Source: Polytrichum commune
Lineage: Eukaryota > Streptophyta > Polytrichopsida > Polytrichales > Polytrichaceae
DNA length: 64,000 nucleotides
Assembly (NCBI GenBank): GCA_950295325.1
Contig: OX485805.1
Location: 186,501-250,500 of the forward strand
Direction of reading: 5' to 3'
Below, piece by piece: positions 9,132-63,052 of this stretch; within the stretch, counting starts at the first letter, position 1, and every line of letters starts with the position of its first letter. The notes beneath the pieces are model-generated. The model did not search any database. It was not told the DNA's origin and saw nothing but the letters and a program-made list of their open reading frames with translations. Position numbers and translations under genes: made by a program.

Positions 9132-10332
9132 CTGCCCATGAAGCCTCGAACTGCCTAACTTTATTTCCTTGGTTCATGAAAGCAGATATTGCTATGAGCT
9201 GGTTCGAGTCCTTGGAATGCACGACGAATGCCTTCCAATATCGGATTGTTTCCTTCAATGGGCTTTTCCACTCGTCGTCTTCAAGGAGAGCTTTTGCAGC
9301 CATCACACTATGTTGGCCGTCGACTATGTAGAACTCTCCATTCTTGAGAATTGGCCAATTTTTCTCGTTGACTTCTACTATAGGATCCTTTGGTGTGACA
9401 CAAATGGTCTGCCTGTCAAATTTGGGGTTGTTCATGATGTTGTTCATTTGCCACCATACCCCGCTTTCTTCTTTCGCTCTAGTATTCATACTCTCGGTGC
9501 CCTTGTGGCATTTGTAGACGTCTACGTCGAAAGTGAAATACCTGCCCAGCGGCCAGCGGCCCTTTGTCTTCTCATCGAATTCTTGGAAGATCTTTGTGGA
9601 AAGTTCGGCGTCAGGGCGTTGACCCTTTTTTAGGAGAGGAGCGACAGTTAGTGTGGAGCTGACATCTGGACCCTCTGTTAGCCCAGATGACTCCATCTGC
9701 GAGTGAGAGCGTTTACTCGTCTGTCTGCTCCCTCTTGATGCACCACTCGGCGAGGGCCTTGAGGTTTCTGGCACAGGTTTGGGCACACGCTTGGGTCGTT
9801 CAGAAACGACTTGTTTCTTCTTCTTCTTCCCCTTTCTGGCCTCTAGCAACGCCCCATTCACTCTTGTAACATTGTTCAAGAGTCGTCCAAGCCGCTTACC
9901 CGTCCAATGTGCATTGCATGCATAGTCTTGGAACTCTGTCTGGAGATTGAAGCAAGCCGCATCTGTACTAGCATTTTCACACTCATTTTTGTTGAAGGGG
10001 TGGTAGGATTCGTGCAAAATGAATGTGACCCGATCTTCTTTCTTCTCAAGGTCAATAACTACATAATTCCCTTGGGCCACTGCACACTCTACTGTCCAGG
10101 ATTTAAGCTTTATCCACTTTTCGGCTTCATCTATGTCCGACTTAATTTGATATGCAAATCTAAGCACAAATATCTCTTTCTCGTCCTTCTCTACCAGTAC
10201 TGTCCAATTATCTACAATTTCATCTTGTGGCTTGTAGTGGTCGTTGGGGCTGATGTCTTTGATATCTTCTGGCAGCGGAGGAATGAGAGCCTCTGCGAAC
10301 ATCTCAATTGCGTGTCTCTTTTTAGATGCCAT
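9132..10332 (-). pseudogene. ParB/DGQHR-like protein, unit A copy, truncated
   Basis: About 400 residues are open from an ATG at 10332 to the gypsy LTR at 9131. The ATG directly follows a splice acceptor (TTTGCAG), as in the unit C paralogue, so I start there rather than at the longer open frame. The N-terminal ~180 residues share order but little sequence with the paralogue. A basic, Ser/Pro-rich linker follows (GKKKKK...RPSPSGASRGS). A ParB-N-like domain comes next: DRQTICVTP, then EFYIVDGQHSVMAAKALL near residue 338, then NQGNKVRQFEASW. In ParB/DGQHR families the DGxHR-like box is the conserved nucleotide-binding or catalytic core. Exons after the first are lost or off the window. Function here is inferred. 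Confidence 0.75.
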
Positions 10333-10389
10333 CTGCAAATGGTCACATACACAACATGTTCGAATTATGGTCAATGGATGTAGATCTAA

Positions 10390-11137
10390 CTTTACGAACG
10401 CGCGTTCGTAAAGTTTTGCATATTCTATCAATTATTTCTTTTAAAGAATGTTATAGTGAATACGCAAATCGCGTACATTATATGCGCGTCCGTGACCTCT
10501 GTACATATATGATAGAAAATGATGTGCTTACTTATATATGTCTAGTTTACGGACGTGCGTCCGTAAACTCTGCACATATATTATATACATAATTAGTTGT
10601 CATATATGCCTTGTTTAGGAACGTGAATCTGTAAAGTTTTCAATCATTTTATACTATTGACAATTCTCTACATGTTACGGACGGGCGTCCGTAACCTCGA
10701 CATATATTATTCAGTGAATTATTACTTATTTTGCCTAGTTTACGGACGCGCGTCCGTAAACTTTTCAAATATTTTATTCAGGAAAAGTTTATGCTACTTA
10801 CAATTCTTTTGATGTTACGGACGTGCGTCCGTAAACTACTCACATATATTATTCAGTGGATTATTACTTATTTTGCAAAGTTTACGGACGCGCGTCCGTA
10901 AACTTTGCAAATATTTTATTCAGGAAAATTTTATTCTATTTACAATTCTGTAGAAGTTACGGACGCACGTCCGTAAACTCCGCATATATATTGTGTGAGG
11001 GTCTTCTTTCTCACCCACACAAGGTCCATAAAGTTTACGGACGCGCGTCCGTAAACTCCGCATATATATATTGTGTGATGGTCTTCTTTCTCACCCACAC
11101 ATGGTCCATAAAGTTTACGGACGCGCGTCCGTAGACT
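10390..11137. repeat. Palindrome array A1 (leader of unit A ParB-like gene)
   Basis: At least nine clear palindromes with arms (A)GTTTACGGACG and CGTCCGTAAAC(T), centred near 10401, 10557, 10686, 10750, 10824, 10893, 10968, 11045 and 11125, plus two decayed ones near 10490 and 10626. Central dinucleotides are CG, TG, GG and CA. The later spacings are 64-80 bp. The first copy uses the ACGAACG spelling of unit B. The copy at 10876-10909 extends to a 34-bp perfect palindrome. The array lies just upstream of the ATG, in what should be a leader intron of the minus-strand gene. Confidence 0.95.
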
Positions 11138-12440
11138 TTAAGGGGTTTATTGGTTACTGTAAATTAAACATTCTGGAGCATTTGCGGAATAGGTTGTTTT
11201 CATTAATGACCCGCATTTTTCGGGATTTTACCTTGTCTTCTAATATGGTATTGCTCTCCAAAGAATGCAATATGGCACAGCACTGCAATAGCAACCTCTG
11301 CACTGCAAAATTGAGAAAATTATACCCTTTCAGAACACTGACATGTCCAAAACCAAATGATTCTTAGAGTCTGGCGATATGCAAAGTACCAAACAAATTC
11401 AGAATTGCTTGAATGTGGAATCTCACTTGCTCTCAAGGTTGTTGGAGCTCACATGCTTTGAAGCTAACCTTAAGCCCTAAACCACAACAACCAAAGAGTG
11501 CAATCATACAAAATGCAATTGCAATGTTATAGAAATGTTACCTTTGTAGAATGTTTTCTCCTGCTCCTAAACTACAACTCCTGCTCGTGCTGCAGGTAAA
11601 ACCGACTGCAAATCAACAATATAATTGAGGTTAGAAACCTCGAGTAATGCAATGGTACTCCTAAATTGCATCAAAACCACAAAAAAACCCTACTACAAAC
11701 ATTAAACTGGATTGAACATGGACATCACATTGAAGTGTCCTTTCAAAACAAAACATGTGATTTCTTAGATCTTGGAAGAGGCAAAGATTTCAATAGGAAG
11801 AGAAATGAACAAGGCCTACAAGATCCCCAAAACAATGAAATTGAACAATGAGAATGACAAAGTGAGAATGACAAAGGAGAATGAGCATTGACAAAGGAGA
11901 ATGACAATGACAAAGGAGAATGCAATTGCAATGTCATTCTACACCAGCAAGACCAGCAAGACCAGCAAAAGCAACAAAAAGTATGCGAACACAAGGTTAC
12001 CTGAAGAGCAAATATGTGGAAACCTATGTACATCAAAGGATAGCGCCAAATAACTTTTGGCAGATCATGGGGTAGCCGAAAGAAACCATACACAAGTAAA
12101 TATATTCTCTGCAATAAATCAGTCCAACTGTTAATGTAATCCAGCTTCAACAAGGAGCAACTTGAAACCAACCTAAAATATTTAGATCAAGCAAGAAAGA
12201 AAAGAAGATAAACACTCATCGCTATCTATCACTGGAAGGTGTGGTATGCTCTCTAGAATGTAAATGGGTTGAGGTTTTCTCCACACCTGAATCCCAGCAA
12301 GAGCACGAAGCAGCAGGAACGAAGAGAGCATGAACACCAGCAAGACCAGCAAGAGCAACAACACAAAGAGAGCAGCAAGAGCAACACCACAAAGAGAGCA
12401 GCAAGAGCGAAGAGAAACGAAAACGAGGAGGGCGAAAATG
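11138..12440 (-). other. Presumed 5' leader (exon/intron) of unit A ParB-like gene
   Basis: No coding sequence. Read on the minus strand, 12.25-12.45 kb is pyrimidine-rich, with CTTGCTG/CTCTC repeats like the 5' leader of the unit C paralogue. Possible splice donors occur on the minus strand (TTCAG/GTAACC near 12000, CAAAG/GTAACA near 11540). It also holds short simple repeats: AGCAAGACC units at 11944-11975 and 12334-12420, and GACAAAGGAGAAT units at 11855-11925. Confidence 0.4.
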
Positions 12441-12459
12441 AGCTCCTGAAAACCCTAAA

Positions 12460-17128: not shown

Positions 17129-17783
17129 GGTTTACGGACGCGCGTCCGTAAACCTTAAACCTCTTGGTTAATTGATTATCTATTGCTCTGAGAACTGTAC
17201 TTGATCTAGTACTCATGTACATTGAGGTTTACGGACGCGCGTCCGTATACCTTCGTACCTTGTGGTGCCATAGTTCGGTGTTGCACCTGAACTGGGATCA
17301 TTACCACTTGCCTTTTAGAGTATGTAATCGAGACTGTAAATTTACGGACGCGCGTCCGTAAACCTTCGTACCTTGTGGTGCCATAGTTCGGTGTTGCATC
17401 TGAACTGGGATCATTACCACTTGCCTTTTAGAGTATGCAATCGAGACTGTAAATTTACGGACACGCGTCCGTAAACCTTAAACCTCTTGGTTAATTGATT
17501 ATCTATTGCTCTGAGAACTGTACTTGAGCTAGTACTCATGTACGTTGAGGTTTACGGACGCGCGTTCGTAAACCTGCGTACCTTGTAGTGACATAGTTCG
17601 GTATTGCACCTGAACTGGGATCATTACCACTTGCCATTTAGAGTATGCAATCGAGACTGTAAATTTACGGACGCGCGTCCATAAACCTTAAACCTCCGGG
17701 CGCTTTGTTCCTTTGTTGCCTTGAGCATTGTCTTTGTGCTCGTACTGAGGTCCAGATAGGTTTACGGACGCGCGTCCGTAACC
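17129..17783. repeat. Palindrome array A2 (leader of DDE-like gene 1)
   Basis: Seven palindromes of the GTTTACGGACG/CGTCCGTAAAC class starting near 17129, 17226, 17340, 17453, 17549, 17663 and 17759. Spacings alternate about 97 and 113 bp because two longer units (TTAATTGATTATCTATTGC... and ACCTTGTGGTGCCATAG...) alternate. The centre is CG except one CACG variant. The array lies between the candidate promoter and DDE-like gene 1. Confidence 0.95.
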
Positions 17784-21700: not shown

Positions 21701-21882
21701 ATCACCCTATGTCTCATAGTATAATATTTTGACATTCATAAAACACACTAGGAAGCGCGTATGTTAACCTCTTCAAACTCATAGTCGTCAGGCTTGGGTA
21801 AACATGTCCGTGGCACCTGGACCTCTTGGGTCCCTAAACCTCTATGTGTCTTGGACAACACTGGCTTTTGACATTTGGATGT

Positions 21883-22089
21883 TTTCGGACGCGCGTCCGT
21901 ATTCCTAAGTTGTATAGTTTGCGGAAATATTTGCGCATGATAATGACCTCTTTGATCACGAAGAGATTTACGGATGCGCGTTGTCTGGACCTTTCCGCAG
22001 ACTATGAACAAATAAATGTATTTGTATGCGCGTGTGCTTGCACTGATAATGTTGTTACATGGAGGTATACGAACGCGCGTTCGTATACC
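21883..22089. repeat. Palindrome group A3 upstream of DDE-like gene 1
   Basis: One near-perfect copy at 21883-21903 (TTCGGACG-CG-CGTCCG), one half-lost at 21965-21985, and one perfect 26-bp copy at 22064-22089 with the spelling GGTATACGAACG and its complement. It continues array A2, from which it was separated by the solo LTR. Confidence 0.9.
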
Positions 22090-22228: not shown

Positions 22229-25200
22229 ATGGATTCCAACATTAATGATAGTGCATTCGAGTTCTCTTCGGAAGCGTCAAGCTATGCTAGCGAATTTGAA
22301 GATGTCGTGGAACAGGAAACTACAATTGGTGTCGCCAATGCAGAGGATGAATTCCTTCCACCATGTGAGGGTTATTCGCGGGAACAATGGATTGATCTTG
22401 ATGTTGTCCTAGTCAATGGATGTGGCGTCTCCGTGGTCGATGATGTTTGTAGGAACTCAAATCCTACAGACTGTATTGATGCAAATCCCCTTGGGGAGGA
22501 AGATGTTGGGGTGTGCATTTTGAATTCCAAACATCCATTGGAAGTGCCTCCTGGTTGGAGATTCTCTCTTCGTCGATGGCCGTTGCGAAGTGTTCTTCAT
22601 GATGGTGTCAGCTTGTGGAATCATGCCCGTCGTTTTGAGGAAATACAAAAGACTTTGTTCGCCACAATGCGTCCTAGAAAAGGTCGGCGTAAGTATGATT
22701 CCGTTCGCGTGCCTCGTGAACCCACGCAACGTCATCGTGATCAAACATTGGGAGACACATCTATTAGGTTCGTAGCAACAAAGGATTGTTGTGCAAAGAG
22801 GTGTTGCCAACTATTTCCCCGTGACAAAATCAAATTTGTGAGACAAGAGATGTGGCTTGCGGACTTTCGTATGCGATCTGCAAAGAAACTTGAAGTTCAT
22901 CGCAACGTGCACTTTGATGCCGAAGGTCGTAAGGTTGTGACCTTGGAAAATGTAGAGGTATGTTGCAAGGCATGGTACATTATACATGCAGTTTCAAAGG
23001 CAGATTTTTATAGGTTCCGGAACTACTTGATGCAAGGACGGCGTTCTCGGTTCCATGGCAACTCTGGCACAAAAAAGCCCAGGGAAGCAACACTCCAAGC
23101 GGCTGCAACACTATCAACCATCATTATGCCATTAGCGGATGCGATGCCACACAAGACGCGGACTTTGCCGTCGGGGGAAAAGGTTGTTCAGATGGTTTTG
23201 CCTACTGGGACAAAATGGAAGAACATACTTATGGATGTTAATGAAGTTGGCGAAAAGGCTGGATGTGGGCTCATTTCGTTGTTAAAATTGAGTGTGATCA
23301 AGAGTCAACAATTTGCAGAGTACATTACGAAGAGGCCTGGGGATAAGTTTGCTAGGTGTTCTGCTTGTGAGAAATATAAAGGCCTTCGAGATGCACATCC
23401 AATAGGGACTGAGTCGCACAATAGACATCAACGGAAATACATTGAGCATGTCAACAACCAGGAGGCACACCGTCAAGACTACTACAAGAATCGCGCATTA
23501 TCGATAATGAGGCCGAATGAGGTTTTGACAATCATTCATGACAAAATGGACCATGCGAAGACTGCGTGCCCGTGTTATGCGCGGAAAATAAAGGCTACAG
23601 ATGGATATTTCAAGCTTCCAATATCTGTCACAGGTTCGTTGGGTTTCATATTTTTTGGCGCACCCACATACTAATCGTTAAGAGTTACGGATGCACGTCC
23701 GTAAGTGTTTGTTCATTTTCTTGGCGTGCTTGCGGAAAAATTGAATCTCATTCTCATAGCTGATTTTGGAATGTACCTCTCATTTGTATATGTTAATTCA
23801 AGTATGATCGCACATGGCCATGTGGACGTCAAATATGCACATTATGGCTTGGATTTCTATCCAGGCGACGCCAATCATACCGTAGGGTCTTTTGCAAAAC
23901 TTCTACGAAATCTTGAGAGTCCGCCAACATCATCCTCTCGTGCTCTTTTTGTTGGATGTGGAACAACACCGATTTATGAGGCTGTGCTAGAGGGGAAGGA
24001 AGTTTGTCTATCTTCACTGCAAGAACCACCTGAACAACCCGTTCTTGCTAAACCTTTGCCTCCAACTCTACACGTGCAACTGGACAATTGTGCCAAAGAC
24101 AACAAATGTCGATACGTGTTTTGTTTTTGGTCATTGCTCGTAGCCAAGGGCATTTTCAAAGAAGTGTTTGTGTCTTTTTTGATGATTGGCCACACGCATG
24201 ATGACATTGACGCTTCATTTGGACGTTGGAGTATGAAGTTGCACGAGGAGGATTTTCCGACAATTCCTCTTCTCATGAAATCATACATGGATTTGGATAA
24301 TGTGCCAGTCATCCCGCATTTGATTGAAGAAGTGCCCGATTTCAAATCGTTTATCAAACCATTCATTCTTAAAGGAGGTGACCGCTTAGTGGGCCATACC
24401 AAGGCTCAACAATTCCGATTCTATATGCGTGATGATGGTCTGCCGGCCATGCAATTCAAAGTTTTGTGCACTTCTCCGAATTGGGGTCCATAGGAAGGGA
24501 TACTCGTATGGCGCCAAAACGAAGAGGGCAAATGTATGCTACCTGATGGGGAGCCAAAGCCTTGCACACCCAACCCCATGAGGAATGGACTTGAAATTAT
24601 CAAAGGTATATCCGGATTCATCGAGTATTGGAAAGAATTGTGCGAGGAAGACATCACAAGGCGTGTTCGGGATACCCACGAACCATTGATTACGTATTGG
24701 GATCGCATTCGCTCAGCATTGCTAGCACCCGATGTCGATACACATTCATGTTTGACACAAGGTTTTTGGCCACAAAGCCGAGTGACAATCGTGGAATCTG
24801 AGGCCATGTTCTTTGACAATGGGGACATCGGTGAAGAGTTCGCTGCGGACGACCATTATGTTGGCCCAGCTCGTAATCGCCCGGCTCCATCATTTCGTGT
24901 GGCTATTGATTGCTACGAAGGTTATATGATCCTCGTACGTCCGGGAGATGAGGAGCACCCTAAACCGATTTGGTTGGTAAAAGCATTGTCATCACCAAAT
25001 TTTGTTCCAACTAGCCCAAATTTTCGTCAAATTGAGGTGGAATATTGCCGTCCAAGCACCAAAGATCAAAATGTGCTCCGCACATATTTAGGGTGGGACA
25101 CAAAAAAAGGTTTCAAATGGACAATGGACTCAGCATACGAACCAATTTGGATAAACACAGATACCATACTTTGTGCTTGGAAACCACGCAAAGGTTCCAA

Positions 25201-25324
25201 ATCAGAGACAATGACCATCCCCCAAAAACATATAGATTTTGCCAAAGACAACTTGGCACGTATTGCTGCTGCAGAAAACGATGTCGATAATGGAAATGAA
25301 GCTGAGGATGAAGATGGAGAGTGA
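22229..25324 (+). pseudogene. DDE-transposase-like protein, unit A copy (broken)
   Basis: Two exons, 22229-23633 and about 23803-25324, closely match intact gene 2 on the minus strand at 35061-38123. Exon 1 has the acidic N-terminus, the Cys-rich block DCCAKRCCQLFPRDK, and CSACEKYKGLRDAH. Exon 2 has VQLDNCAKDNK and GHTHDDIDASFGRWSMKL. Two defects are visible. The splice leaves exon 2 one base short (AG/TATG instead of AG/GAATG), and an in-frame TAG lies at 24491-24493 where gene 2 reads on. The ATG follows a TTGTAG acceptor, so there is a leader intron. The family resembles DUF7869-containing, probably transposon-derived proteins; the enzyme activity is inferred. Confidence 0.8.
23684..23705. 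repeat. Single palindrome in intron of DDE-like gene 1
   Basis: GTTACGGATG-CA-CGTCCGTAAG lies within intron 23634-23802. The left arm has one change from the class A arm. The intron of intact gene 2 (36548-36679) has no palindrome. Confidence 0.9.
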
Positions 25325-47565: not shown

Positions 47566-47757
47566 TATTGGGAAATGAGAGGAGAAAGCAAAGACATCAG
47601 CGTAGAAAGGTAGAACACAACACACAAGGATTGCATACAATGGAGAGAGTGATTAGCTCCTCCCCTTATGCCTTTATTTATATGTGTAGGTTAGGACCAG
47701 CCGTGACAACCCATATGGGACAATGTCACCGATGCAACCTAACACTACCTTCCAATA
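47566..47757 (-). repeat. Copia 3' LTR
   Basis: 192 bp. It reads the same as 61233-61424 at nearly all positions, pointing to recent insertion. The adjoining PPT is at 47758-47767. Confidence 0.95.
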
Positions 47758-48868: not shown

Positions 48869-49842
48869 TGTCGCGCACCTCTCCATGAGGAGTGCCCAAA
48901 ACACCATGGGCACAAGGGGGACCCCGGAGTGACACCCGGGACTTGTGGCGCCGTTGGTGAGAGGGCCCAAGTGATCCTAGTGTGGGTGAGGGCCCCGGGC
49001 GTTGGGAACGCCTCCCACCCACGAAGACTAGGAGGCACAAGGGTAAGGCCATGAGCTATGCGTAGCTCATGGCGTGGTGATTCTAGAAAGCTCAAGAACA
49101 CCTCAATCGGAGGTGTGAGCTAGGAGTTATGGCCATTTGAGTGGGGCGCTGTCCCGGGACAGCGCCCTGGTACAGCAGTGCCTGGGAGTGATTCCCGGGA
49201 CTGCCAAGGTTCAAACAGGCATAACTTCCTCAAGACTTGCCCGAATGGGGCAAGCGAGGAGTCCATCGGCATCTACGTGAAGCGTAGATGAAGATGGAGT
49301 GGTTGGTTGTTATGATCAGACATCATACAAGGAAGTTATGATGGTCTGAAGCTGCTAGTGGGTTCTAGGCCCAGCAGCTAAAGGAAAATGTCCACTTGGC
49401 CCCAACTCTTGGTAGAGAGACAAGAGGTTGGTTGACGGTGGGGTAGGGGCCCCGCGTGAAGTCCTAGAGGCTTATATGGGTGAGGTGGTGTGGCCTCACC
49501 CACCCGAGGCCGAACGGCAAGGCCTCCATGGGCATTGGCCCATTGTGAGGCCATAGTTGCCTAGTATGGTTCGGGTTGTTGTAGTGTTGCTCCGGCAACG
49601 CAATGATCAACATAGGATTGGACTTCCATGGATGGAAGTCCACATTGGGGAAATGGGTTACCGATTAAGGGGTGAGTCCCGAAAGCAAAGTAGGAGGGTT
49701 GGTTCCCTCCTATGAACTATTGGTCCGGGGTTAGAGGAGCTAACCATTTGCATGGCGGTATGCGAAGGGTTAGCACTCGTAACCTTTGCTAGGAAATGAA
49801 AATTGCCAAGATGGTCAAGGGGGACTAGCAAGGGTTGCGACA
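48869..49842 (+). repeat. Gypsy copy 3 5' LTR, 974 bp
   Basis: TGTCGC...GCGACA. It shares private variants with the 3' LTR (CACGAAGACTAGGAGGCAC, CTAGAAAGCTC, CGGCAAGGCC, CTGCTAGTGGG). The 24-bp palindrome with half site GGGCGCTGTCCC is at about 49145-49168. Confidence 0.95.
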
Positions 49843-49844
49843 CG

Positions 49845-49856
49845 TGGTATCAGAGC
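49845..49856 (+). other. Gypsy primer-binding site (tRNA-iMet 3' end)
   Basis: TGGTATCAGAGC, two bases after the LTR, is complementary to the 3' end of plant initiator Met tRNA. It is the most common PBS in plant LTR elements. Confidence 0.95.
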
Positions 49857-52199
49857 AGGGTTCCAAGTTTTGAGCTCGCACTTTGAGGGAAACATGGCTA
49901 TTAAAAATGCGGGTTATGATGGTGAGCCCGGGGTTTCCAAAAGGTTGTGAGGCTCAAATTGGAACAAGGATCATGTGCAAGTGGAATTTGACCATACCAT
50001 TGGTTCTAATGACAATGGTGGGCATGAGGGTGGATTTGGTAAGGAAAATGGAGGAGTGCTTTGAAAAGGGCTCCCGCAAACCTCAAAAAAACATTTGGGG
50101 CCTAGAATACCGAATGCACCCAAAACCTTGGAGGGTATTAATGTTGGATTGAAATTCAATTCGAGATGCTTCGAAGGTTCGGATGTTGAAATGAACTTGG
50201 TGCTAATTAGGCACCCATGGCCTCTTAAGGCCTATGTGCGCTATTCAAACGCACAAATGAAGGATACACCTAAAACGGACGAGCTTTCTAAGAAATGCAT
50301 CGTTTTAGGTGGGGTTTTAAAAGCGGGTGGTGGATGCCTTGTTTAAGTCCCCAAGGCTTCTTGAGGACATGGTGGGGACCATCAAGTTTGCAAGAGCATT
50401 GAAGCCGATGGTCCCAAAGAGAAGTTTGGCGGCGCATCACCACAAGTGCCTTTAGCCAAAGTAGGTCCCAAAGAAATGAGTGCAAATTGTTTGGTCCATT
50501 TTACTTAGGCAAAACATGTTGGTGCCGCAGACGGAATGTTGAAAGGTGGCTTTATGCTTCCAAAGCAAATCATACTTGTGCCGCGGACGGAATGTTGGGA
50601 GGTGGGTTTGTCCTACCAAGGCAATTCATGTTCGTGCCGCGGATGGAGTGTGGGAAGGTGGCTTTGTGCTACCAAGGCAAAACATGTTTGTTTTGCGGAC
50701 AAACTATTAGAAATTGGTTTTGTGGCACCAAACCAATTTGTCCCGCGCACGAAATGTTTGAAGTTGGCTTTGCGGACCAAACCAAGTCAAGTTGCCGAGG
50801 ACCAAATGTAAGACGATGGCATTGTGGCCAAGGCTAGTAGCCTTAAGCCGAGGCCAAGTCTTTTGTACCTTGAGGCTCAAATGAATGGGAGATATGTCTC
50901 ATGAGTTGACAAAGAGGCAATGGACTCTTTCATGAGCCCAAAGCTCACAAGGGAGTTGGGGCTTGCCAATTGATAGAGCGGGCAAGCCCACCAAGGTGCG
51001 GTTTGGAAAGGGCGAACCGCATGAAACAAAGGAGGCCGCGATGCATGTAACCTTTCAATGTGGGACATTGGATTTTTGTCAAAATTTCACACCAAGTGAA
51101 ATAGATGAAATGCATGTCATTGTGAAGGCCGCCTTCTTTGAAACTCACATGATAGATGTGAGGTGCAAGCCGGGTGTTTGCAATGCATTATGATGTGTCA
51201 TAATAGCAAAGAATTGAAGTTCAAATTGACAAGGACTCCTATGGTAGGAGGACCCAAGTTGAATTTGGTCTTAATGGACCAAATGCAAAATATAAACATA
51301 ATTGTCGTGGTTCAATTGGAGCAACTCCAAAGAACGTATGGGGAGGCGAGGAAAGATGGGCCTCCCCCAAATCACATTGGTGGGATGTTGGTGAGGTACA
51401 AGGATGTATTCACCAATGTGTTGCCCAAAAACATTACCGCCAAGGAGTGAAAAATAACTTTGCTCAACGAGAGATTGAGTTCTTGAGGTATGTGGTGACA
51501 AAGGACGTTGGTGGATGAACATGAAGAATGTCAAAGCAATCCAAAAGGAGAATTGGCCCTTCATTCAAAAAAATGCTTAGGTCATTTGTTGGCCTAGCCA
51601 ACTACTACCACCACTTCATTCAAGAGTTTTTGAAGGTTGCTAGGACCTTAATCAACTTATTGAGGAAAATGGCTATCCCAAGAGTGGGATGAGCCTTGTC
51701 ACCAAGCCTTTGGGAAGCTTAAGACCAAGTTCTCTTCGCCGCCCGTGCTCAAGTTCGTGGAGTTGGCAAACCTTTGAGGTGCATACGGGGGCGGGTGACT
51801 TTACCATTGGCGGATGTTAAGGCAAAATGGATGGCCATTGCATATAAGAGCATGAAGCTTGATGGTTGTTCAACCTTGTCCAACTTGTGCAAGAAATGGC
51901 TATCCCAACAGTGGGATGAGCCTTGCCACCAAGTCTTTGAGGAGCTTAAGACCAAGTTCTATTCGCCACCCGTGCTCAAGTCCACGGAGCTTGACAAACC
52001 TTTTGAGGTGCATACGGGGGTGAATGACTTTGCCAATGGTGGATTTTGTGTAAGATGGATGGCCTTTGCATATGGGAGCATGAAGCTCGATGGTTGTCAA
52101 AGAAGACAACCAACTCATGACAAAGAACTTCTTTGCCGTAGTGCATTGCTTGAAGATGTGGCGACATTATATGGGGTCGCACAAAGCAAAGGTCTACAT
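49857..52199 (+). pseudogene. Gypsy copy 3 internal: remnants up to RNase H
   Basis: Parallels 3370-5600. The 60-bp repeat is at 50510-50800, followed by a protease-like remnant (MHVTFQCGTLDFCQNF), YKDVFTNVLPK, SFVGLANYYHHFIQ (split), WLSQQWDEPCHQVFEELKTKF and THDKELLC. Stops and frameshifts are frequent, and the RT palm is missing as in copy 2. Confidence 0.75.
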
Positions 52200-53171
52200 T
52201 GTCGCGCACCTCTCCATGAGGAGTGCCCGAAACACCATGGGCACAAGGGGGACCCCGGAGTGACACCCGGGACTTGTGGCGCCGTTGGTGAGAGGGCCCA
52301 AGTGATCCTAGTGTGGGTGAGGGCCCCGGGCGTTGGGAACGCCTCCCACCCACAAAGACTAGGAGGCATGAGGGTGAGGCCATGAGCTATGCGTAGCTCA
52401 TGGCGTGGTGATTCTAGAATGCTCAAGAACACCTCAATCCGAGGTGTGAGCTAGGAGTTATGGCCATTTGAGTGGGGTGCTGTCCCGGGACAGCCCCCTG
52501 CTACAGCAGTGCCTGGGAGTGATTCCCGGGACTGCCAAGGTTCAAACAGGCATAACTTCCTCAAGACTTGCCCGAATGGGGCAAGTGAGGAGTCCATCGG
52601 CATCTACGTGAAGCGTAGATGAAGATAAAGTGGTTGGTTGCTGGAATCAGACATCATACAAGGAAGTTATGATGGTCTGAAGCTGCTGGGGGCTTCTAGG
52701 CCCAGCGGCTAAAGGAAAATGTCCACTTGGCCCCAACTCTTGGTAGAGAGACAAGAGGTTGGTTGACGGTGGGGTAGGGGCCCCGCGTGAAGTCCTAGAG
52801 GCTTATATGGGTGAGGTGGTGTGGCCTCACCCACCCGAGGCCGAACGGCACGGCCTCCATGGGCATTGGCCCATTGTGAGGCCATAGTTGCCTAGTATGC
52901 TTCGGGTTGTTGTAGTGTTGCTCCGGCAACGCGATGATCAACATAGGATTGGACTTCCATGGATGGAAGTCCACATTGGGGAAATGGGTTACCGATTAAG
53001 GGGTGAGTCCTGAAAGCAAAGTAGGAGGGTTGGTTCCCTCCTATGAACTATTGGTCCGGGGTAAGAGGAGCTATCCATTAGCATGGCGGAATGCGAAGGG
53101 TTAGCGCTCGTAACCTTTGGTAGAAACGAAAATTGGCAAGATTATTAAGGGACCTAGCAAGGGTTGCGACA
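52200..53171 (+). mobile_element. Gypsy solo LTR nested in copy 3
   Basis: 972 bp, TGTCGC...GCGACA, flanked by TACAT (52195-52199 and 53172-53176). The uninterrupted target, GGTCTACA.GGACAATGTG, is seen at 5621-5640. Its palindrome is mutated (GGGTGCTGTCCC...CAGCCCCC). Confidence 0.95.
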
Positions 53172-53370
53172 TACATGGACAATGTGTCCTAAAAGTATTT
53201 TGACATACAAGCATAAGTGAATGCCAAGTCATTGCGGAGGCATGATAGTTTGGCGCTTATGAAGGTGGATTTAATCCACAAACCGGACCGTGGAAATGTG
53301 GTGCCGGATGCGCGAAGTAGACCGGAAGAGTTCCAAGCAATGAGAACCGTCCAAACCTTGTGGCTAATGT

Positions 53371-54423
53371 GTGCCGGCAAAGGAAACTTGTGATGCAAGA
53401 TACGGGAGGGGTAAATTTACTACCCCAAAAGCACAAAAACTTTTAGGTGAGCTTCGCAAGAGCAAGGTGCTCAAAGAGGTTAAGTTGGTGGACGGATTGT
53501 TCAAGTGTAAACAAAGTCGGGTGTATGTGCCACAAGGCAAGTTGAGGCTATCGGTTTTGAAGGAAGAATGTGATAGTCCTATTGCCGGCCATAGAGGAGA
53601 AAGAGAAAGCCGCCATAGAATGGTGTCAAGGGGGTACCATTGGCGGTGCATAAAGAAGGATATAGCCCACTTTGTGAAGGCTTGGATGAAGTGCCAAGTG
53701 AACCGAGCCTCTTACCAAAAGCAAGGCGGTTTCTTGCAACCGTTGCCTATCCCGTCGGCGCCATGGCATAGTATGTGCATGGACTTGATCACAAGTTTGC
53801 CGGAGTCACATGGGTATGATGCCATCTTGTTGATGGTAGAGCAGTTTGCCAAGTTGGCACACATGGTGCCGATTGTGGGAACCGCCACCGCGTTGGAGAC
53901 CGCATAGCCTTTTCTCAAAGGATGGTTGAGGCACCACGGGTTGCCAAGAGTGATTGTGAGGGATCAAGATCCAAAGTTCACAAGTGCATTTTCAATGCAT
54001 TTCTCTAAGGAGGTCGGAATGAAACTAAGGTTTAGCACGGCCTTGCATTCCCAAATGGATGGGAAAGCGGAGCATGTGAATGGAGTCTTGAAGCAATACT
54101 TGAGGAACTTGGTGGGGGCGGACCAAGGAGATTGGGCGGACTATGTGGGTCGAGCGGAGTGTAATTGCAATGTAGCCACGCACTTGGCTACCAAGGGGTG
54201 GTCTTTCGTGGTGGCTTATGGAGTGGATGCGCTCCAACCTATTAACCTAGCTCTCGAGGGGGCACATTCAACACTAGAGTTCAACCAAGATGGTAAGGAC
54301 TTGGCCAAGGAGCAAAAACAAGTCTTGGAGATGACCAAGTTGTTGGTGGAGAAAGCCCGAAGGTGCTACGGAGTGCAAATCAATGCCGGAAGACGCGAAG
54401 TGGAGTATGAGGTGGGCCAATAA
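53371..54423 (+). pseudogene. Gypsy copy 3 integrase
   Basis: Two open frames, 53371-53907 and 53926-54423, are separated by one TAG. Zinc region HRMVSRGYHWRCIKKDIAHF...KCQVN; core DLITSLPESHGYDAILLMV; VIVRDQDPKFTSAFS; QMDGKAEHVNGVLKQYLR, which retains the catalytic Glu. It is better preserved than copy 2. Confidence 0.9.
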
Positions 54424-54734
54424 GGTGTTGTTGAATGTGGACAACTTCACCTTGCCCAAAGGCCTTACTCCAAAAGTTCATGTCCAAAATTGGAGCTTCG
54501 TTTTCCATTGTGGAACAAGTGTTCAAGGACATGTATAAGTTGGAATTACCGCCGGAGATCAAAGTGCATCCGACATTTCATGTCTCATTACGAAAGTCAT
54601 TTTAGGACGACACCTTGTGGCCCGATCACAAGCAAGTGATTAGGCCACCTCCCGACCTTGTGGAGGTCATTTGGAACATGAGGTAAGAGGGCATCCTCAA
54701 GTGTAGGAAGCCCAAGTGAAAATGAAAGAAAATG

Positions 54735-54884
54735 TACAAAGGAGTACTTGGTGAAATGGTGAGGATACCATGAGAAACAAACCGCTTGGGTGGCGGCAAG
54801 AGACATGGTGAACACCAATGAATTGGTGAAGCACTTTGAAGAAACTAAGGCTAAGGATTCCAATAAAATGAAGCGGAGGCATTG
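54735..54884 (+). pseudogene. Chromodomain of gypsy copy 3
   Basis: EYLVKW, stop (TGA 54760-54762), GYHEKQTAWVAARDMVNTNELVKHF and so on. A single stop in an otherwise normal chromodomain, shared with copy 2. Confidence 0.8.
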
Positions 54885-55699
54885 ATGAGGACATCAATCT
54901 CCTTTAGTGGGGGAGAGACGCTAGTAGCACACTTAGCTTCGAGGTTAATTGCTCCACAACATGAACTTGTTCTTTGGCTTGAGGGAATAAAGTCCAAACT
55001 TTAGTGGTGCAAAGAGAAAAGTATGAGATGAGGTCCTAGTCTTGTACTTGTGCTTGGTTAATGGAAGAGGGGGAATAGATATGCCAAACTAGGTTGGGTA
55101 AGCCGAGTAATTGGGGGCCATGGCTTGGAGGGGCCTTGGATAAAACCAAGAAACTTCTTAGTTGTGGGCTTGTCCGGGCGGGGGCAAGGTGATGGCGCGT
55201 GCTCATAAAAGTGCTACCCGCGAGCTAACGAGAGTTGGCGCATGGGAGTCATGAACCCATGTCTCGAAAGAGCAAAGTGGGAACCGAGTCGGGCGGGACT
55301 TGGCATCACCCCCGTGCGATCGAGGCGTGGCTTAACAATGGAAAGCCATCTCGGAGTTGCAACCGAGACAACTTAGTGGAAGCGTTGAGGTCTCGCCTAG
55401 ATGTGTCACGTTAGGCTAGTGGAGCCTAACGGGGGAGGCCCCAAAGGAGGGGCAACCCAAGTGAGTCCTAAAGTAGGTGGGTCTAGTATAGGTTAGGTCC
55501 TTGGATGAGAGATCCAAGGTCGCTAACGGACCACCTAGGAACGACACCTTTGGGACTATGCCAAATTTGAAGATGCATTGTGGGGGTCGCGCCCTAAGGT
55601 AAACACAATGCCGCACCATAGAGGATGGCAACTTGAGAATTGGTGTGCCGACTACGAGTATAGTCGATGAGGGCATCGACTCCGTTTGGTGGGGGTGAG

Positions 55700-56673
55700 T
55701 GTCGCGCACCTCTCCATGAGGAGTGCCCAAAACACCATGGGCACAAGGGGGACCCCGGAGTGACACCCGGGACTTGTGGCGCCGTTGGTGAGAGGGCCCA
55801 AGTGATCCTAGTGTGGGTGAGGGCCCCGGGCGTTGGGAACGCCTCCCACCCACGAAGACTAGGAGGCACAAGGGTAAGGCCATGAGCTATGCGTAGCTCA
55901 TGGCGTGGTGATTCTAGAAAGCTCAAGAACACCTCAATCGGAGGTGTGAGCTAGGAGTTATGGCCATTTGAGTGGGGCGCTGTCCCGGGACAGCGCCCTG
56001 GTACAGCAGTGCCTGGGAGTGATTCCCGGGACTGCCAAGGTTCAAACAGGCATAACTTCCTCAAGACTTGCCCGAATGGGGCAAGCGAGGAGTCCATCGG
56101 CATCTACGTGAAGCGTAGATGAAGATGGAGTGGTTGGTTGTTATGATCAGACATCATACAAGGAAGTTATGATGGTCTGAAGCTGCTAGTGGGTTCTAGG
56201 CCCAGCAGCTAAAGGAAAATGTCCACTTGGCCCCAACTCTTGGTAGAGAGACAAGAGGTTGGTTGACGGTGGGGTAGGGGCCCCGCGTGAAGTCCTAGAG
56301 GCTTATATGGGTGAGGTGGTGTGGCCTCACCCACCCGAGGCCGAACGGCAAGGCCTCCATGGGCATTGGCCCATTGTGAGGCCATAGTTGCCTAGTATGG
56401 TTCGGGTTGTTGTAGTGTTGCTCCGGCAACGCAATGATCAACATAGGATTGGACTTCCATGGATGGAAGTCCACATTGGGGAAATGGGTTACCGATTAAG
56501 GGGTGAGTCCCGAAAGCAAAGTAGGAGGGTTGGTTCCCTCCTATGAACTATTGGTCCGGGGTTAGAGGAGCTAACCATTTGCATGGCGGTATGCGAAGGG
56601 TTAGCACTCGTAACCTTTGCTAGGAAATGAAAATTGCCAAGATGGTCAAGGGGGACTAGCAAGGGTTGCGACA
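55700..56673 (+). repeat. Gypsy copy 3 3' LTR, 974 bp
   Basis: The same length as the 5' LTR and apparently almost identical to it. It is preceded by the purine tract GGTGGGGGTGAG and followed by GGATT and copia RT sequence. Confidence 0.95.
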
Positions 56674-59124
56674 GGATTGCTTCAATCCGTAGAGTGATTT
56701 CCCCAACTTGCATACGAGGTGCTCTCGGCCTTTTTGGACAAACCCCTCCGGTTGCTCCATGTAGATGACCACGTGCAATTCGCCGTTCAAGAATGCGGTC
56801 TTGACGTCCATTTGATGTATCTCCAAGCCCATGGCCGCCGCCATTGCGAGGATGACCCTAATGGTGTTGAATTTGGCCACGGGTGCGAAAGTCTCGCCGA
56901 AATCCACACCTTCCACTTGCGAGCACCCCTTGGCCACCAACCTCGCTTTGAAACGCACCACCACGCCGTTGGCATCCTTCTTCGTGCGAAACAACCACTT
57001 GCATTTCACGGCCTTGCGGCCCTTCGGCAATGGAACCAACTCCCACGTGGCGTTGGCTATGAGAGATTCGTACTCCTCTTGCATAGCCGACTCCCACTTG
57101 CTCGCATCACTCGATTCAAATGCTTCTCTCAAGTTTCTAGGTTCCCCAACCATTGCTATGTTTGCGTGCTCATCGTCTTCGGGTTGCGGAATGTGGTTCT
57201 TCCACCATTCCCCAAGAGGTTTGCGTGGCCTATCCGGATACCTAGAATTGCCTATGGTCTCATTGCCATCTTGCGGTGGTGGAGGTGGTTTGGTTGCGGT
57301 TCTCTTACCGGCGTTAAGTTTCGATGCCTCCGCGCTACGAGTGGATTTCGCGGCCGGTACTTCGGCCTCCGACTCGTCCTCAATGTTCGGCTCCTCCTCG
57401 TCCGGCTCCGAAACGTCGCCGCTCGCCTCCAACTCCTCCGCTTCCGATTTGGGAGATATGTCCACCTTCACCGTCGGTACTTCATCAACTCTCCCACTTG
57501 GACAATCCTCCAAATGCGTTTTGTCTTCGAAAAACACCACGTCCGGACTCTTGATGATTTTCTTCGTCTCCAAGCACATGAGCCGATACGCCTTGGTGCC
57601 TTCGCAATATCCGAGGAACAAACACTTGACGCCCTTCGCATCCAACTTCGTTCGCCTTTGATCCGGCACCTTCGCGTAAGCCACGCATCCGAACACCCGC
57701 ATGTGCGACACGTGCGGCATCCTCCCGCTCCACGCCTCCTCGGGTGTCATTCCTTCAACCGCCTTGGTGGGACACCGGTTGCGTACGTACGCCGCATTGC
57801 ACACCGCCTCCGCCCAAAATTCGTGGCCGAGGCGTTGGGCATGAATCATGGACCGTGCCATCTCCACGATGGTCCGGTTGGCTCGCTCCGCCACGCCGTT
57901 TTGTTGCGGCGTGTAAGGTGAGGAGGTTTGCCGTGCAATGCCATGTTTGCTCAAGAAATCATCAAATGCCTTTGAAATGTATTCCCCCCCGTTATCCGAC
58001 CTAAGAACCTTCACTACGTGCTCCGATTGCCTCTCCACCAAGGTTTTCCATTCTTTGAACCTTGCCAACACCTCCTTCTTGGACTTGAGCACGTACACCC
58101 AAATCTTGCGTGAGAAATCGTCAATGAAGGTGAGAAAATACCTTGCGCCCCCGATGGACGCCGTTTTCATCGGCCCGCACACGTCGGAATGCACGAGCTC
58201 CAAGATCTTGGTGGCGCGGGTGCCTCCGTCCGTGGGGAATGGTCGCCTCGCTTGTTTGCCCTCCACACATCCTTCGCATGCGAAGGAATGCACGTCGCCT
58301 TGCGCCGCTCCCACGTCCATCCCGCTCACCATGCTTTGGAGCATTTTCACGCTATTGGCGTTGAGATGCCCCAACCTCTTGTGCCAAAGCTCCAAAGGAT
58401 GCGAGTTGGCCTCGGAATGCGCCAAAGAACTCGTTTCGGCCCCATTCAACACGTTGGTGTCCAATTGGTACAAATTGGACTGCAACGACGCCACGGCCAA
58501 CATCTCGCCGTTGCTCGCCCTCACCACGCATCCCAACGAGTTGAAATGCACTTTCAAACCCCTCGAAATGAGCTTGCTCACCGAAAGCAAGTTGGAATGC
58601 ATTTTCGGCACATGAAGCACGTCGTGCATTCTAATGCTCCGCACACGGCCTTTCACGCGTGTTTCCACTAGTATGGAGCCTTTGCCTACGGCATCTACCA
58701 TGCCGTTATCACCCATAAACACTTTGCGACCCGTGATGGGTTCGTAAGTGTCGAAAAAATGCTTATGTGGTGTCATGTGTTGCGAGGCCCCCGAATCCAC
58801 GATCCATCTAGTGGCGGACATTTTAGACGCCCCATCTCTCGCTACGAATGCAAAATCATCGCTCGCCCTTGCCATGTTTGCGTTCCCCTTGCGTTTCATT
58901 CGACAATTACGAGCAATGTGGCCCAACTTACCACAATTGTAGCACCTCGGGCCGTCGCCGCGCCTCTCGTTGTTGTCGAACGCTCGATGTTGGCGGGACA
59001 ACATGGCCGCATCGTCGCCTTGAGGCTCCTTCTCCTTCCTCTTGGACACCTCGTGCATGAGACGTGCGGTGATGAAGTCCAACTTGAGCTCCGAAATGGG
59101 GCGCGTCTCCAATGCGGTGATCAA
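56674..59124 (-). pseudogene. Copia polyprotein: zinc knuckle, protease, integrase, RT start
   Basis: About 815 open residues on the minus strand. CYNCGKLGHIARNC is the gag zinc knuckle; WIVDSGASQHMTPH is the aspartic protease with its D-S-G; LWHKRLGHLNANSV...CEGCVEGK is the integrase zinc domain. HSDVCGPM, then DNGGEYISKAF, then PQQNGVAERANRT, carry the integrase D, D and E. WELVPLPKGRKAVKCKW to LYGLKQS is the first part of RT. Cut by gypsy copy 3 at 56673. All catalytic residues upstream of the cut appear intact. Confidence 0.95.
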
Positions 59125-59611
59125 CCACGTCCTCGTCCTTCATAGGCACCTCCAAGCACGTGAGTTGGTCCGCAAGAGATTTTACCTTGTTGATGTGCGT
59201 GAGGATGTCGTCGCCCTCGTCCATCTTGATGGTGAAGAACTTGTGCCTTATGAACAAGATGTTGGACAAGCTTTTGGTTTCGTGGATGTTGCACAAGGTC
59301 TTCCACGCTTCCGCGGGTCCCTTGCATCCTTTGATGTGCGCCAACTCCTTGTCCACCAAACTCATGGCAATGATGGCGAAGGCTTTCTTGCATCGTCGCT
59401 CGTACGCCTTCTTGACTTCGTCGCTCGCCGTAGAAGGTGGTGGCAACTCCGAACCATCCACGATCTCCCAAAGATCTTTGGTGGACATGGCCATCTCCAA
59501 TTTAAACTTATAGAGGTTGAAGTTCTCGCCACCGAACTTGTCAACCGATATAAGTCCATCGTTTTCCCTAGAAGCCATTTTCAAAGCGAATGCAAGCTCC
59601 CACTCACTCAA
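58928..59611 (-). CDS. Copia Gag (UBN2-type) N-terminal frame
   Basis: The frame has candidate starts MSEWEL (59611) and MASREN (about 59578), then LISVDKFGGENFNLYKFKLEMAM, WEIVDGSE, AFAIIAMSLVDKELAHIKGC, AWKTLCNIHE and VKSLADQL, typical of copia gag. It leaves the pol frame near 59124: an extra T in GTGGTTGATCAC puts ITALETRP, the expected continuation, in the next frame. This is either a one-base insertion that breaks the polyprotein or a frameshift site. The true gag product therefore ends around 59120 rather than at 58928. Confidence 0.85.
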   Translation of the reverse strand: MSEWELAFALKMASRENDGLISVDKFGGENFNLYKFKLEMAMSTKDLWEIVDGSELPPPSTASDEVKKAYERRCKKAFAIIAMSLVDKELAHIKGCKGPAEAWKTLCNIHETKSLSNILFIRHKFFTIKMDEGDDILTHINKVKSLADQLTCLEVPMKDEDVVDHRIGDAPHFGAQVGLHHRTSHARGVQEEGEGASRRRCGHVVPPTSSVRQQREARRRPEVLQLW

Positions 59612-59692
59612 TGTAGTACAAGGGCTTAGAAACCCTCAAGGAAGTTTAGAAAATGATTTTAAACTTTGGAATTAATTCAAGGTTCTCACACA

Positions 59693-60990
59693 CTCAAGTC
59701 AGCACCTTTCCACTCCAAAGCTAAGCCAAATAACTATATAACCATCAAAAAACCACAACTAAGCCTTTTGGAACTCAAAACACCTCAAAGTAAGCATAGA
59801 ATGGATGGATCTCTCAAGTCAGCACCTTTCCACTCCAAAACTAAGCTTAATAACTATATAACCATCAAAAAGCCACAACTAAGCCTTTTGGAACTCAAAA
59901 CACCTCAAAGTAAGCATAGAATGGATGGATCTCTCAAGTCAGCACCTTTCCACTCCAAAACTAAGCTTAATAACTATATAACCATCAAAAAGCCACAACT
60001 AAGCCTTTTGGAACTCAAAACACCTCAAAGTAAGCATAGAATGGATGGATCTCTCAAGTCAGCACCTTTCCACTCCAAAACTAAGCTTAATAACTATATA
60101 ACCATCAAAAAACCACACCTAAGCCTTTTGGAACTCAAAACACCTCAAAGTAAGCATAGAATGGATGGATCTCTCAAGTCAGCACCTTTCCACTCCAAAA
60201 CTAAGCTTAATAACTATATAACCATCAAAAAGCCACAACTAAGCCTTTTGGAACTCAAAACACCTCAAAGTAAGCATAGAATGGATGGATCTCTCAAGTC
60301 AGCACCTTTCCACTCCAAAACTAAGCTTAATAACTACATAACCATCAAAAAGCCACACCTAAGCCTTTTGGAACTCAAAACACCTCAAAGTAAGCATAGA
60401 ATGGATGGATCTCTCAAGTCAGCACCTTTCCACTCCAAAACTAAGCTTAATAACTACATAACCATCAAAAAAGCCACACCTAAGCCTTTTGGAACTCAAA
60501 ACACCTCAAAGTAAGCATAGAATGGATGGATCTCTCAAGTCAGCACCTTTCCACTCCAAAACTAAGCTTAATAACTACATAACCATCAAAAAAGCCACAC
60601 CTAAGCCTTTTGGAACTCAAAACACCTCAAAGTAAGCATAGAATGGATGGATCTCTCAAGTCAGCACCTTTCCACTCCAAAACTAAGCTTAATAACTACA
60701 TAACCATCAAAAAAGCCACACCTAAGCCTTTTGGAACTCAAAACACCTCAAAGTAAGCATAGAATGGATGGATCTCTCAAGTCAGCACCTTTCCACTCCA
60801 AAACTAAGCTTAATAACTATATAACCATCAAAAAGCCACAACTAAGCCTTTTGGAACTCAAAACACCTCAAAGTAAGCATAGAATGGATGGATCTCTCAA
60901 GTCAGCACCTTTCCACTCCAAAACTAAGCTTAATAACTACATAACCATCAAAAAGCCACAACAAAGCCTTTTGGAACTCTAATCACCTCA
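59693..60990 (+). repeat. 120-bp tandem array in the copia 5' leader, 11 copies
   Basis: Units begin CTCAAGTCAGCACC at 59693, 59813, 59933, 60053, 60173, 60293, 60413, 60534, 60655, 60776 and 60896. They are nearly identical; a one-base change in an A run makes some 121 bp. Read on the copia strand, the array lies between the PBS and gag. Confidence 0.98.
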
Positions 60991-61218
60991 AACCCTCAAA
61001 ATGCGAATCGATCTCACATAAACACTCAAGATACAATGAACCTCAACCTAAGGTATCCTCCACGCTGGTCCAAGTGTCCAAGAATGCTCCAAGGCGCTCC
61101 AAAAATGCTCCAAAACTCCAAAACTCCACCAAAAGCTTGAAACACCTTCAAATCGCCTCCGATCAGATCCGACTCTCTCCTACCTCCTCCTAAGCTGATC
61201 TCTAAGCTCTAAAGCAAA

Positions 61219-61232
61219 GTGGGCCCATAACC
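61219..61232 (-). other. Copia primer-binding site (internal tRNA-iMet)
   Basis: On the minus strand GGTTATGGGCCCAC directly follows the LTR. It is complementary to the anticodon arm of initiator Met tRNA (GTGGGCCCATAACC), not to the 3' end. This is the half-tRNA priming known from Drosophila copia and other hemiviruses. Confidence 0.85.
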
Positions 61233-61424
61233 TATTGGGAAATGAGAGGAGAAAGCAAAGACATCAGCGTAGAAAGGTAGAACACAACACACAAGGATTG
61301 CATACAATGGAGAGAGTGATTAGCTCCTCCCCTTATGCCTTTATTTATATGTGTAGGTTAGGACCAGCCGTGACAACCCATATGGGACAATGTCACCGAT
61401 GCAACCTAACACTACCTTCCAATA
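61233..61424 (-). repeat. Copia 5' LTR
   Basis: 192 bp with TATTGG/CCAATA ends, the right partner of 47566-47757. It is followed by the ATCCG duplication. Confidence 0.95.
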
Positions 61425-61429: not shown

Positions 61430-61976
61430 CCCGCGGCCGGCGCCGCAGCAGTCCTTCAGCTTCGCGCACTTGCTGCAGCCGCACGCCCGCCCTTACGTGC
61501 CCGTCCAGCAGGTGGACGACCCCAACCTTTGGCGCGTCCCCGGAGCTTCCAGCTCGTTGGCACCCCCGCCGCTCCGGCCTCCCATCCTCTCGCCCCCACA
61601 CCACCAGCGGGACGACCCCCACATGTTTGGGTCGTCCGACCCAAACAGTGCCGACGTTGCAGCGTCCCAGAGCGACGCTCGCCAAGCAGCAGGGTTTGGG
61701 TCGGCCGACCCAAACCCCGTCCCCGATCGGACCCCGGTGGACGAGCCCATGTTAGATGTTGAAGGCCCGCAAGGGCCTGGTGATACCTCTACTCCTAACC
61801 CAGTCGATGAACCAATGCATGATGCGCATGCGGAGGTTGGGTTGGGACAAAGGCCTGACAGTCAGCCTTTGCAGGAGCAGGTTGCGGCTGACGTCGTCGT
61901 CGGAGGCGGCGGTGACAGAGGTGGGGCAACGCACGCGATGCCGGCATCAACGTCGTCGAGGCACGACCAAGGCAAG
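61430..61976 (+). pseudogene. ParB-like gene exon 3, right part
   Basis: Continues the exon 3 frame after the copia (QDI-R/PRPAPQQ). It is Pro/Ala-rich and low in complexity, and ends QGK at the donor GGCAAG/GTAATG. Two class C palindromes lie within the reading frame (61626-61645, 61695-61714) and are translated as FGSSDPN and FGSADPN. GC-rich. Confidence 0.65.
61626..61714. repeat. Two class C palindromes inside an exon
   Basis: TTTGGGTCG-TC-CGACCCAAA at 61626-61645 and TTTGGGTCG-GC-CGACCCAAA at 61695-61714, the latter extended by GGG/CCC. Both keep the frame. Confidence 0.95.
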
Positions 61977-61997
61977 GTAATGCACTGACCCCACTCA

Positions 61998-62017
61998 GTT
62001 TGGGTCGGTCGACCCAA
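61998..62017. repeat. Class C palindrome in intron 4
   Basis: TTTGGGTCG-GT-CGACCCAAA close to the donor of intron 61977-62489. The rest of this 0.5-kb intron shows nothing else. Confidence 0.9.
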
Positions 62018-62489
62018 ACTCCCTGGGTCTTTGACTTCTTGCCTTGGTCGTGTCCCCTACCTACCCTAAACTCACGCACACGTCGCCCCCCTGGCACTCG
62101 CGCCCTTCGCCACTTCCCCCCGACCATTCGTTCGTCCACATACCCCCCGGCTGGCGACGAAGTCTTCATCACGGTGGCCCGTCTCTTCAATTTTTGCTAG
62201 ATGGAGAAGTAGGCTAGTTTGAACGCATCGTTCAACGCGGCTCCCCCCAATCAAGATGTACATAGAGCATTGTATACAATATAATCGCCATTTTTTACTG
62301 CTATATACTTGTATCATGTGTTTGAATGTATGTTGTATGCTCTTGCCTCTCTTGTGTCCCTTGTTGCACCCCCTCCAAAATGAATCAAATGGTTTTGTGT
62401 TTGCACCGAGAACACTCATTTCTTTAATGCTTCGTTTGGACATAGCATGACATAAGTCGCCCACCGTTTTCTCTCGATCGTATCCACAG

Positions 62490-63052
62490 GGCTCGGAGCA
62501 TAGCATAGCGGCTCCCCGACGTTCTTCTCCAAGGAGCAGAGAGGGCAGCGCGGCAGCGCCCCCGATTTTACCCGCCCCGCCCCCGCGGCCGAAGAAACGA
62601 TTCCTGGTGTTAGACCTGAACGGGGTCCTCGTCCAATGCGTTCATTGCCCGAGGACCCCCACGGTGCCCTTTTGCAAGCCCGAGGACGCGAATTACGACG
62701 GCCCGCCCACGTTCATAAAGAGCAAGCTAGTTCACCTCCGCCCGTGGCTTCGGACCTTCCTCCAGCTGGCCCAACAACGATGGTGGGTGGTCGTTTGGAG
62801 CTCCATGACGGCCGAGAACACCAATGCCGTCGTGGAGTTCATCTTCAAGGGCATCGAGCCCCCGTGCATGGTCCTAGCACAGGAAGCCTGTAGAATATTG
62901 TACACACCGGACGGCAAAGTCGTCAAAAAACCAAACAACCCCGCTTCCCCCCAATACCTCAAGGTCTTGAAGCCCATTTTTTGGGACCAGCGGCCGTCCT
63001 TGATAGGCGTCCCCTACGACGTCCGTCCCACCCGCGAGAACACGCTCATGGT
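62490..63052 (+). pseudogene. FCP1/HAD-phosphatase-like exon, truncated
   Basis: After the ATCCACAG acceptor the frame continues: a Pro-rich linker, then KKRFLVLDLNGVLVQC, then LRPWLRTFLQLAQQRWWVVVWSSMTAENTN, and RENTLMV at the break. This is an FCP1/NIF-type HAD domain: motif I is DLNGVL (second Asp replaced by Asn, as in some plant members) and motif II is VVWSS. The DD motif expected directly after NTLMV is missing because a gypsy fragment begins at about 63053. Canonical members remove phosphate from proteins such as the RNA polymerase II tail; here the D-to-N change and the truncation argue against activity. Confidence 0.75.

Follow-up and report, generated by a model that had tools for sequence, protein, structure and literature searches.

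The window analysed here, the 64,000-nucleotide stretch of contig OX485805.1 (assembly GCA_950295325.1), is plant-like nuclear DNA, dense with nested gypsy and copia retroelements, and Rfam and tRNA scans of it returned 0 matches. It holds two units, A and C, in opposite orientation, each of which pairs a gene encoding a ParB domain with a gene encoding a DUF7869 DDE transposase. A tblastn search with 133 relatives (65 ParB, 68 DDE) placed one ParB locus at 9-10 kb on the minus strand and the other at 43-46 kb on the plus strand, the latter having a tail at 61 kb; the DDE loci lie at 22-25 kb (plus) and 35-38 kb (minus). No third ParB or DDE copy was found in the window with these relatives, apart from single stray matches at 33 kb (+) and 46 kb (-). 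The two genes are linked and divergent in both units (2/2), which upholds the head-to-head layout in opposite orientations given in a preliminary description of this DNA.

The DDE gene of unit A (DDE-A, 22229..25324, plus strand) comprises exon 1 (22229-23633) and a second exon from about 23803, with a match to PF25273 at E 3.9e-39. It contains an in-frame stop near 24491 and the splice acceptor of its intron is unsettled, and for these reasons the gene is probably dead. DDE-C, on the minus strand, consists of exon 1 (36680..38123), supported by relatives, and exon 2 (35061..36547), which carries the DUF7869 domain (PF25273, E 8.9e-43); joined at 36680/36547, the two give a stop-free reading. 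The DNA of the two genes is 68-69% identical. Both proteins belong to DUF7869, with scores of 134.7 and 146.5 bits against a curated cut-off of 26, and the protein displays the RNase H-like fold of the DDE/D cut-and-paste transposases, with an invariant D-D-D triad. The named best relatives come from two mosses, Ceratodon purpureus and Physcomitrium patens. Neither relatives of DDE-C nor matches to the DDE alignment A6 were found among viral contigs, and a Foldseek comparison of the DDE model with viral models gave nothing at E<=0.001.

The ParB gene of unit A (ParB-A) lies on the minus strand at 9132..10332, within an open reading frame (ORF) at 9061-10431. The coordinates of the preliminary description hold, but they cover only the first part of the gene, which ends at 9132 because a gypsy-type long terminal repeat (LTR) abuts there. 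ParB-A matches the PHROG ParB-like family at E 0.0054 and shares 31% identity with ParB-C (E 1e-48). ParB-C begins at 43593 on the plus strand, as described earlier, and extends to 61988 across a copia insertion. Exon 1 (43593..44942), defined by ORF, relatives and structure model, encodes an N-terminal β domain and a ParB/sulfiredoxin-like domain, which in the model adopts the ParB CTPase/Srx fold of that superfamily. Exon 2 (45138..46469) encodes a helical linker and an amino-methyltransferase-like region and has an in-frame stop near 45463. The first part of the last exon (46640..47565) contains an in-frame stop near 47480 and is unbroken in P0003, a metagenomic ParB relative. The copia insertion (47566..61424, minus strand), which has 196-bp LTRs of 99.5% identity and ATCCG on either side, separates it from the second part (61430..61988), which matches the P0003 C-terminus. 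As P0003 is a single continuous protein whose C-terminus matches the window ORF 61410-61988, ParB-C can be followed through three exons up to the copia insertion and resumes past it. Units A and C are taken to be relics rather than active copies because of the truncation, the insertions and the in-frame stops.

The label ParB-like given in the preliminary description is correct for the ParB domain and overlooks the C-terminal half, which, less surely, resembles the N4/N6 amino-methyltransferases. This part is seen in unit C only, where it and its Rossmann-like fold are weakly indicated. Motif IV of DNA N4/N6 amino-methyltransferases is (D/N/S)PP(Y/F/W); the position of DPPY reads DFRN in all seven sequences of alignment A3, so that the catalytic form of the motif is missing. 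Searches of the methyltransferase half against sequence libraries gave no result. No ParB-C relative was found among viral contigs, and the ParB alignment A5 found none among viral or genome contigs.

Both units carry palindromes composed of two 10-bp half-sites around a 2-bp spacer, 22 bp in total. Three classes were distinguished: class A, TTTACGGACG NN CGTCCGTAAA; class B, TTTACGAACG NN CGTTCGTAAA; and class C, GTTTGGGTCG NN CGACCCAAAC. With up to 3 mismatches allowed, the window contains 21 class-C and 51 class-A/B matches compared with a mean of 0.00 each in shuffled sequence, which confirms the palindrome arrays noted previously. At least six different spacers occur among the 21 class-C sites and the arms are constant, a combination that would look like the site of a protein dimer. 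Class-C palindromes lie upstream of DDE-C (38410..39201, in 79-bp tandem units), in the ParB-C leader (three, 43180..43566), at the start of ParB-C intron 1 (three, 44951..45078, the same place as in relatives), in intron 2 (two, 46503..46560) and immediately 3' of the ParB-C stop codon (61998..62019). Nineteen of the 21 are outside coding sequence; the other two are within the last coding exon of ParB-C (61625-61646 and 61694-61715). In unit A, class-A palindromes are found beside ParB-A (10391..11135), where the site nearest the ATG bears a class-B half-site, and in the intergenic region (17131..17782), in tandem units of ~100-113 bp. Two degenerate palindromes are located in the DDE-A leader (21882..22087) and one of class A in the DDE-A intron (23684-23705). 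The class-A and class-B half-sites are one base apart and are mixed at two sites, 10391 and 17551. This repetition of family-specific motifs in introns and intergenic parts is of the VANDAL/VANC type. None of the three palindromes matched the viral contigs (0 matches each).

The metagenomic relatives were translated straight through introns, so that intron DNA can be inferred from the proteins. The end of exon 1 is covered by 38 of the 65 ParB relatives, six of which were dropped for tails shorter than 8 residues. Within 45 residues past exon 1, an exact class-C palindrome is encoded in 18 of the remaining 32, and in 25 when one-residue variants are allowed; the position in intron 1 is thus fixed. 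At the end of exon 2, a script matched four proteins, three with palindromes (P0001, P0003 and P0073), and P0074, not caught by the script, carries them as well. The ParB leader of P0107 contains an exact palindrome, those of P0081, P0098 and P0132 are one residue off, and that of P0099 has none. On a tree of 30 ParB exon-1 proteins, 21 of them labelled, the variant half-site (VSxxRPK) requires 2 changes compared with a shuffled mean of 4.6, and 0 of 500 shuffles was as low, a test that near-copies inflate. In these sequences the half-site variants follow the ParB tree and are linked to clades. No class-C palindrome was seen among the 68 DDE relatives, though few of them read into an intron. 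The pattern of sites, which are symmetric, noncoding, family-specific, kept in position and changing with ParB, is that of a self-recognition code.

Alignment A6 identified one relative among genome contigs, L001, a 4.3-kb contig (1-4327) filed in the GTDB cyanobacterial bin AVDCRST_MAG81. By its DUF7869 gene it is apparently plant contamination. Three palindromes, GTTTAGSTCGANTCGASCTAAAC, lie upstream of this gene, and half-sites flank it on both sides (12 vs 0.48 expected), which indicates that a DUF7869 locus outside the window is also marked by a palindrome set of its own.

The DDE-side terminus, GAGACT..AGTCTC followed by TTAACGAATATAGTG, is common to unit A (26157..26202, plus strand), unit C (34529..34574, minus strand) and the DNA behind element B, a non-coding element adjoining unit A. 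In A and C it is oriented alike with respect to the DDE gene. Behind element B, a second class-B region (31737..33700) ends in the unit-A terminus (33655-33700). The terminus 15-mer is absent from 30 shuffles. No ParB-side partner end for unit C was found within 61989-63048 in the required orientation with up to 5 mismatches; the ParB side of unit A lies beyond the window. The DDE-side end reads CACTATATTCG, then TAA in unit C. CACTA/EnSpm elements end in CACTA...TAGTG and generate a 3-bp target duplication; membership in this group was set aside, as a single end is seen. A looser copy of the terminus, with 4 mismatches, is present in the C centre at 40621. It falls near the end of a near-perfect fold-back of 411 bp (40248-40658), which matches its reverse complement at 74% and probably represents a small nested element.

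Element B (26202..31494) is 5.3 kb long and is inserted precisely where unit A ends. It is bounded by 235-bp terminal inverted repeats (95%) and flanked on either side by TGTT, has class-B palindromes within each of its ends, and encodes neither a ParB nor a DDE protein. Sola1 elements produce 4-bp target duplications. Element B looks like a non-autonomous relative equipped with class-B palindromes.

The DDE transposase, the linked divergent gene, the common DDE-side terminus and the palindromes in the noncoding parts of both genes favor a composite transposon. On the best reading, A and C would represent two old families of one large composite transposon lineage of a plant, probably a moss. 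The preliminary description proposed two copies of one inherited composite element; a composite DNA transposon remains the best reading, but because the palindromes differ and ParB identity is only 31%, two families are indicated rather than copies of the same element. On balance, we consider it probable, by a modest measure, that the units are remnants of composite DNA transposons and that their palindromes are bound by the ParB-methyltransferase-like protein, in the service of self-marking or anti-silencing.

Beyond the covariation of palindrome and protein, the mechanism set out here, with binding, DNA modification, anti-silencing and mobility, is inferred. The DUF7869 transposase, given its fold and triad, would cut and paste the element. 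The 22-bp palindromes of the element are most likely bound by a dimer of its ParB-methyltransferase-like protein, with the ParB domain reading the palindrome and the methyltransferase-like half either modifying DNA or merely assisting binding. The bound protein would tag the element or protect it, either through modification of DNA or by obstructing silencing by the host, such that the divergent promoters stay on; it may also repress its own gene. Palindrome and protein changing together would keep families independent. The further proposal of a self/non-self code, in which every family has a 22-bp address of its own, repeated in introns and leaders, and a matching reader that forms a clamp and whose marking or protection is confined to that family, is put forward tentatively, as possible but short of probable.

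The claim in the preliminary description that no eukaryotic transposon with such content had been described is countered by Ectocarpus Sola1-1 (Sola1-1_Ec32), a large DNA transposon in which a ParB and DNA methyltransferase gene lies on the strand opposite the transposase (PMC12477816). The same paper cites similar proteins from green and red algal transposons (Iyer 2011; Petroll 2025), and its authors suggest that proteins of this kind attach to the transposon that encodes them and modify it. The opposite strands and the ParB domain are present in both window units (2/2); a putative methyltransferase part, weakly indicated, is seen in unit C only. The window units differ in their probable moss host, DUF7869 transposase and atypical methyltransferase motif IV, and the accessible account of Sola1-1_Ec32 mentions no palindromic target sites. 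DUF7869 may plausibly correspond to the Sola1 transposase; 'Physcomitrella Sola1' appears in a table of PMC9033089. In Arabidopsis, VANDAL elements likewise combine a transposase with a separate protein, VANC, which binds short motifs located in noncoding DNA, namely introns, intergenic stretches and termini; these motifs vary among related families, grow by tandem repeats and coevolve with VANC (PMC5735166). Unlike the window sites, the VANC motifs are short and are not called palindromic in the accessible text, and VANC lacks a ParB or methyltransferase fold and accompanies a different transposase. Fungal transposons of several superfamilies carry TET/JBP dioxygenases (PMC12730594), and thus also a transposon-borne enzyme for DNA base modification, although enzyme, hosts and transposases are all different. 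The bdelloid N4CMT resembles the window protein as a bacterial-type amino-methyltransferase acting on transposons in a eukaryote, but is a host gene with a chromodomain that silences transposons and is not itself transposon-borne (PMC8885841).

Several observations weigh against the proposed reading and lend themselves to other explanations. Neither A nor C showed a complete pair of termini or a target duplication in the window, nested retroelements crowd the region, and only two gene pairs were seen; two divergent pairs out of two have a chance of 1 in 16, so that orientation by itself is weak evidence. The pairs might then be chance neighbors or an old segmental duplication in transposon-rich DNA rather than one mobile element. 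This appears quite improbable, as a single palindrome class flanks both genes within each unit, the DDE-side terminus is common to A, C and the element B region, and the Ectocarpus transposon holds the same pair on opposite strands (PMC12477816). The palindromes could instead be sites of the DDE transposase or its repressor, like the subterminal repeats of CACTA and Mutator elements, with the ParB-methyltransferase-like protein serving otherwise. The L001 palindromes, which surround a DUF7869 gene on a 4.3-kb contig that lacks a ParB gene, would fit this, as would element B, which has class-B palindromes within each end and encodes neither protein. We regard it as unlikely, given that class-C sites occur in the ParB leader, both introns, the last coding exon and past the stop, distant from the DDE-side end, that their intron-1 placement is kept in ParB relatives, and that the half-site variants track the ParB tree.

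The invariant DFRN in place of DPPY in the seven A3 sequences would fit a dead methyltransferase fold used for binding, by which the protein would evict host methylation from its own element in the manner of VANC, without methyltransferase chemistry. A conserved FNxFGG loop could still bind S-adenosylmethionine. Pfam scans of the ParB proteins listed no VANC-type family, in scans that included no direct VANC comparison. VANC itself provides a described precedent of intron and intergenic motifs coevolving as tandem repeats (PMC5735166), and this explanation is a serious prospect, if somewhat less than probable.

A ParB-methyltransferase transposon gene is already known from brown, green and red algae, according to the accessible part of PMC12477816. 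The probable land-plant version, the DUF7869 transposase and the candidate self-recognition sites are new. No report of such a pair in land plants or with DUF7869, or of target palindromes, was found in the open literature, where Iyer 2011 and Petroll 2025 were represented through PMC12477816 only, and the term DUF7869 was not found in the open papers searched. If the proposal is correct, the units would provide the first identified target and the first land-plant case for this class of transposon protein, as far as that literature shows. The proposal of self-binding and modification in PMC12477816 names no target site in its accessible part; the element-specific palindromes are a candidate target, which makes it testable by binding assay. 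The window units would extend the algal proposal to a probable land plant and, alongside VANC, offer a second, ParB-based candidate for anti-silencing of that sequence-specific kind.

The AT-rich centre between the C genes (39202..43179) is without a long ORF and contains clusters of telomere-like AAACCCTAA. Altogether, fifteen telomere-like AAACCCTAA/TTAGGGTTT motifs (12450-17873, 29511-29545 and 39879-42790) are present vs about 0.3 expected per strand, every one of them within unit A, B or C and outside the retroelements. Plant promoters commonly contain telo boxes, and the motifs may belong to the divergent promoters. Apart from these repeats and one weak peptide match, no similarity was found between the A and C centres. 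An interrupted solo LTR occupies about 17885-21700 in the gap between the A genes.

Two ORFs adjoin unit C. ORF 34206-34559 shows a CxC...CxH pattern resembling a SWIM zinc finger, with a Pfam match (E 0.11) that falls short of the cut-off. It begins directly past the terminus of C, giving the impression that C inserted into it or next to it; this starting point and the sub-threshold Pfam match are the reasons for setting it aside as a part of C. ORF 62451-63260, after ParB-C, is NIF/FCP1-type phosphatase-like (Pfam E 3.6e-08), with its end overlapped by a gypsy fragment, and is either a host gene or cargo of C. Nested in the copia insertion is a gypsy element (48869-56673) flanked by GGATT, and the copia element also contains about 11 nearly identical 120-bp tandem repeats at 59693-60992.

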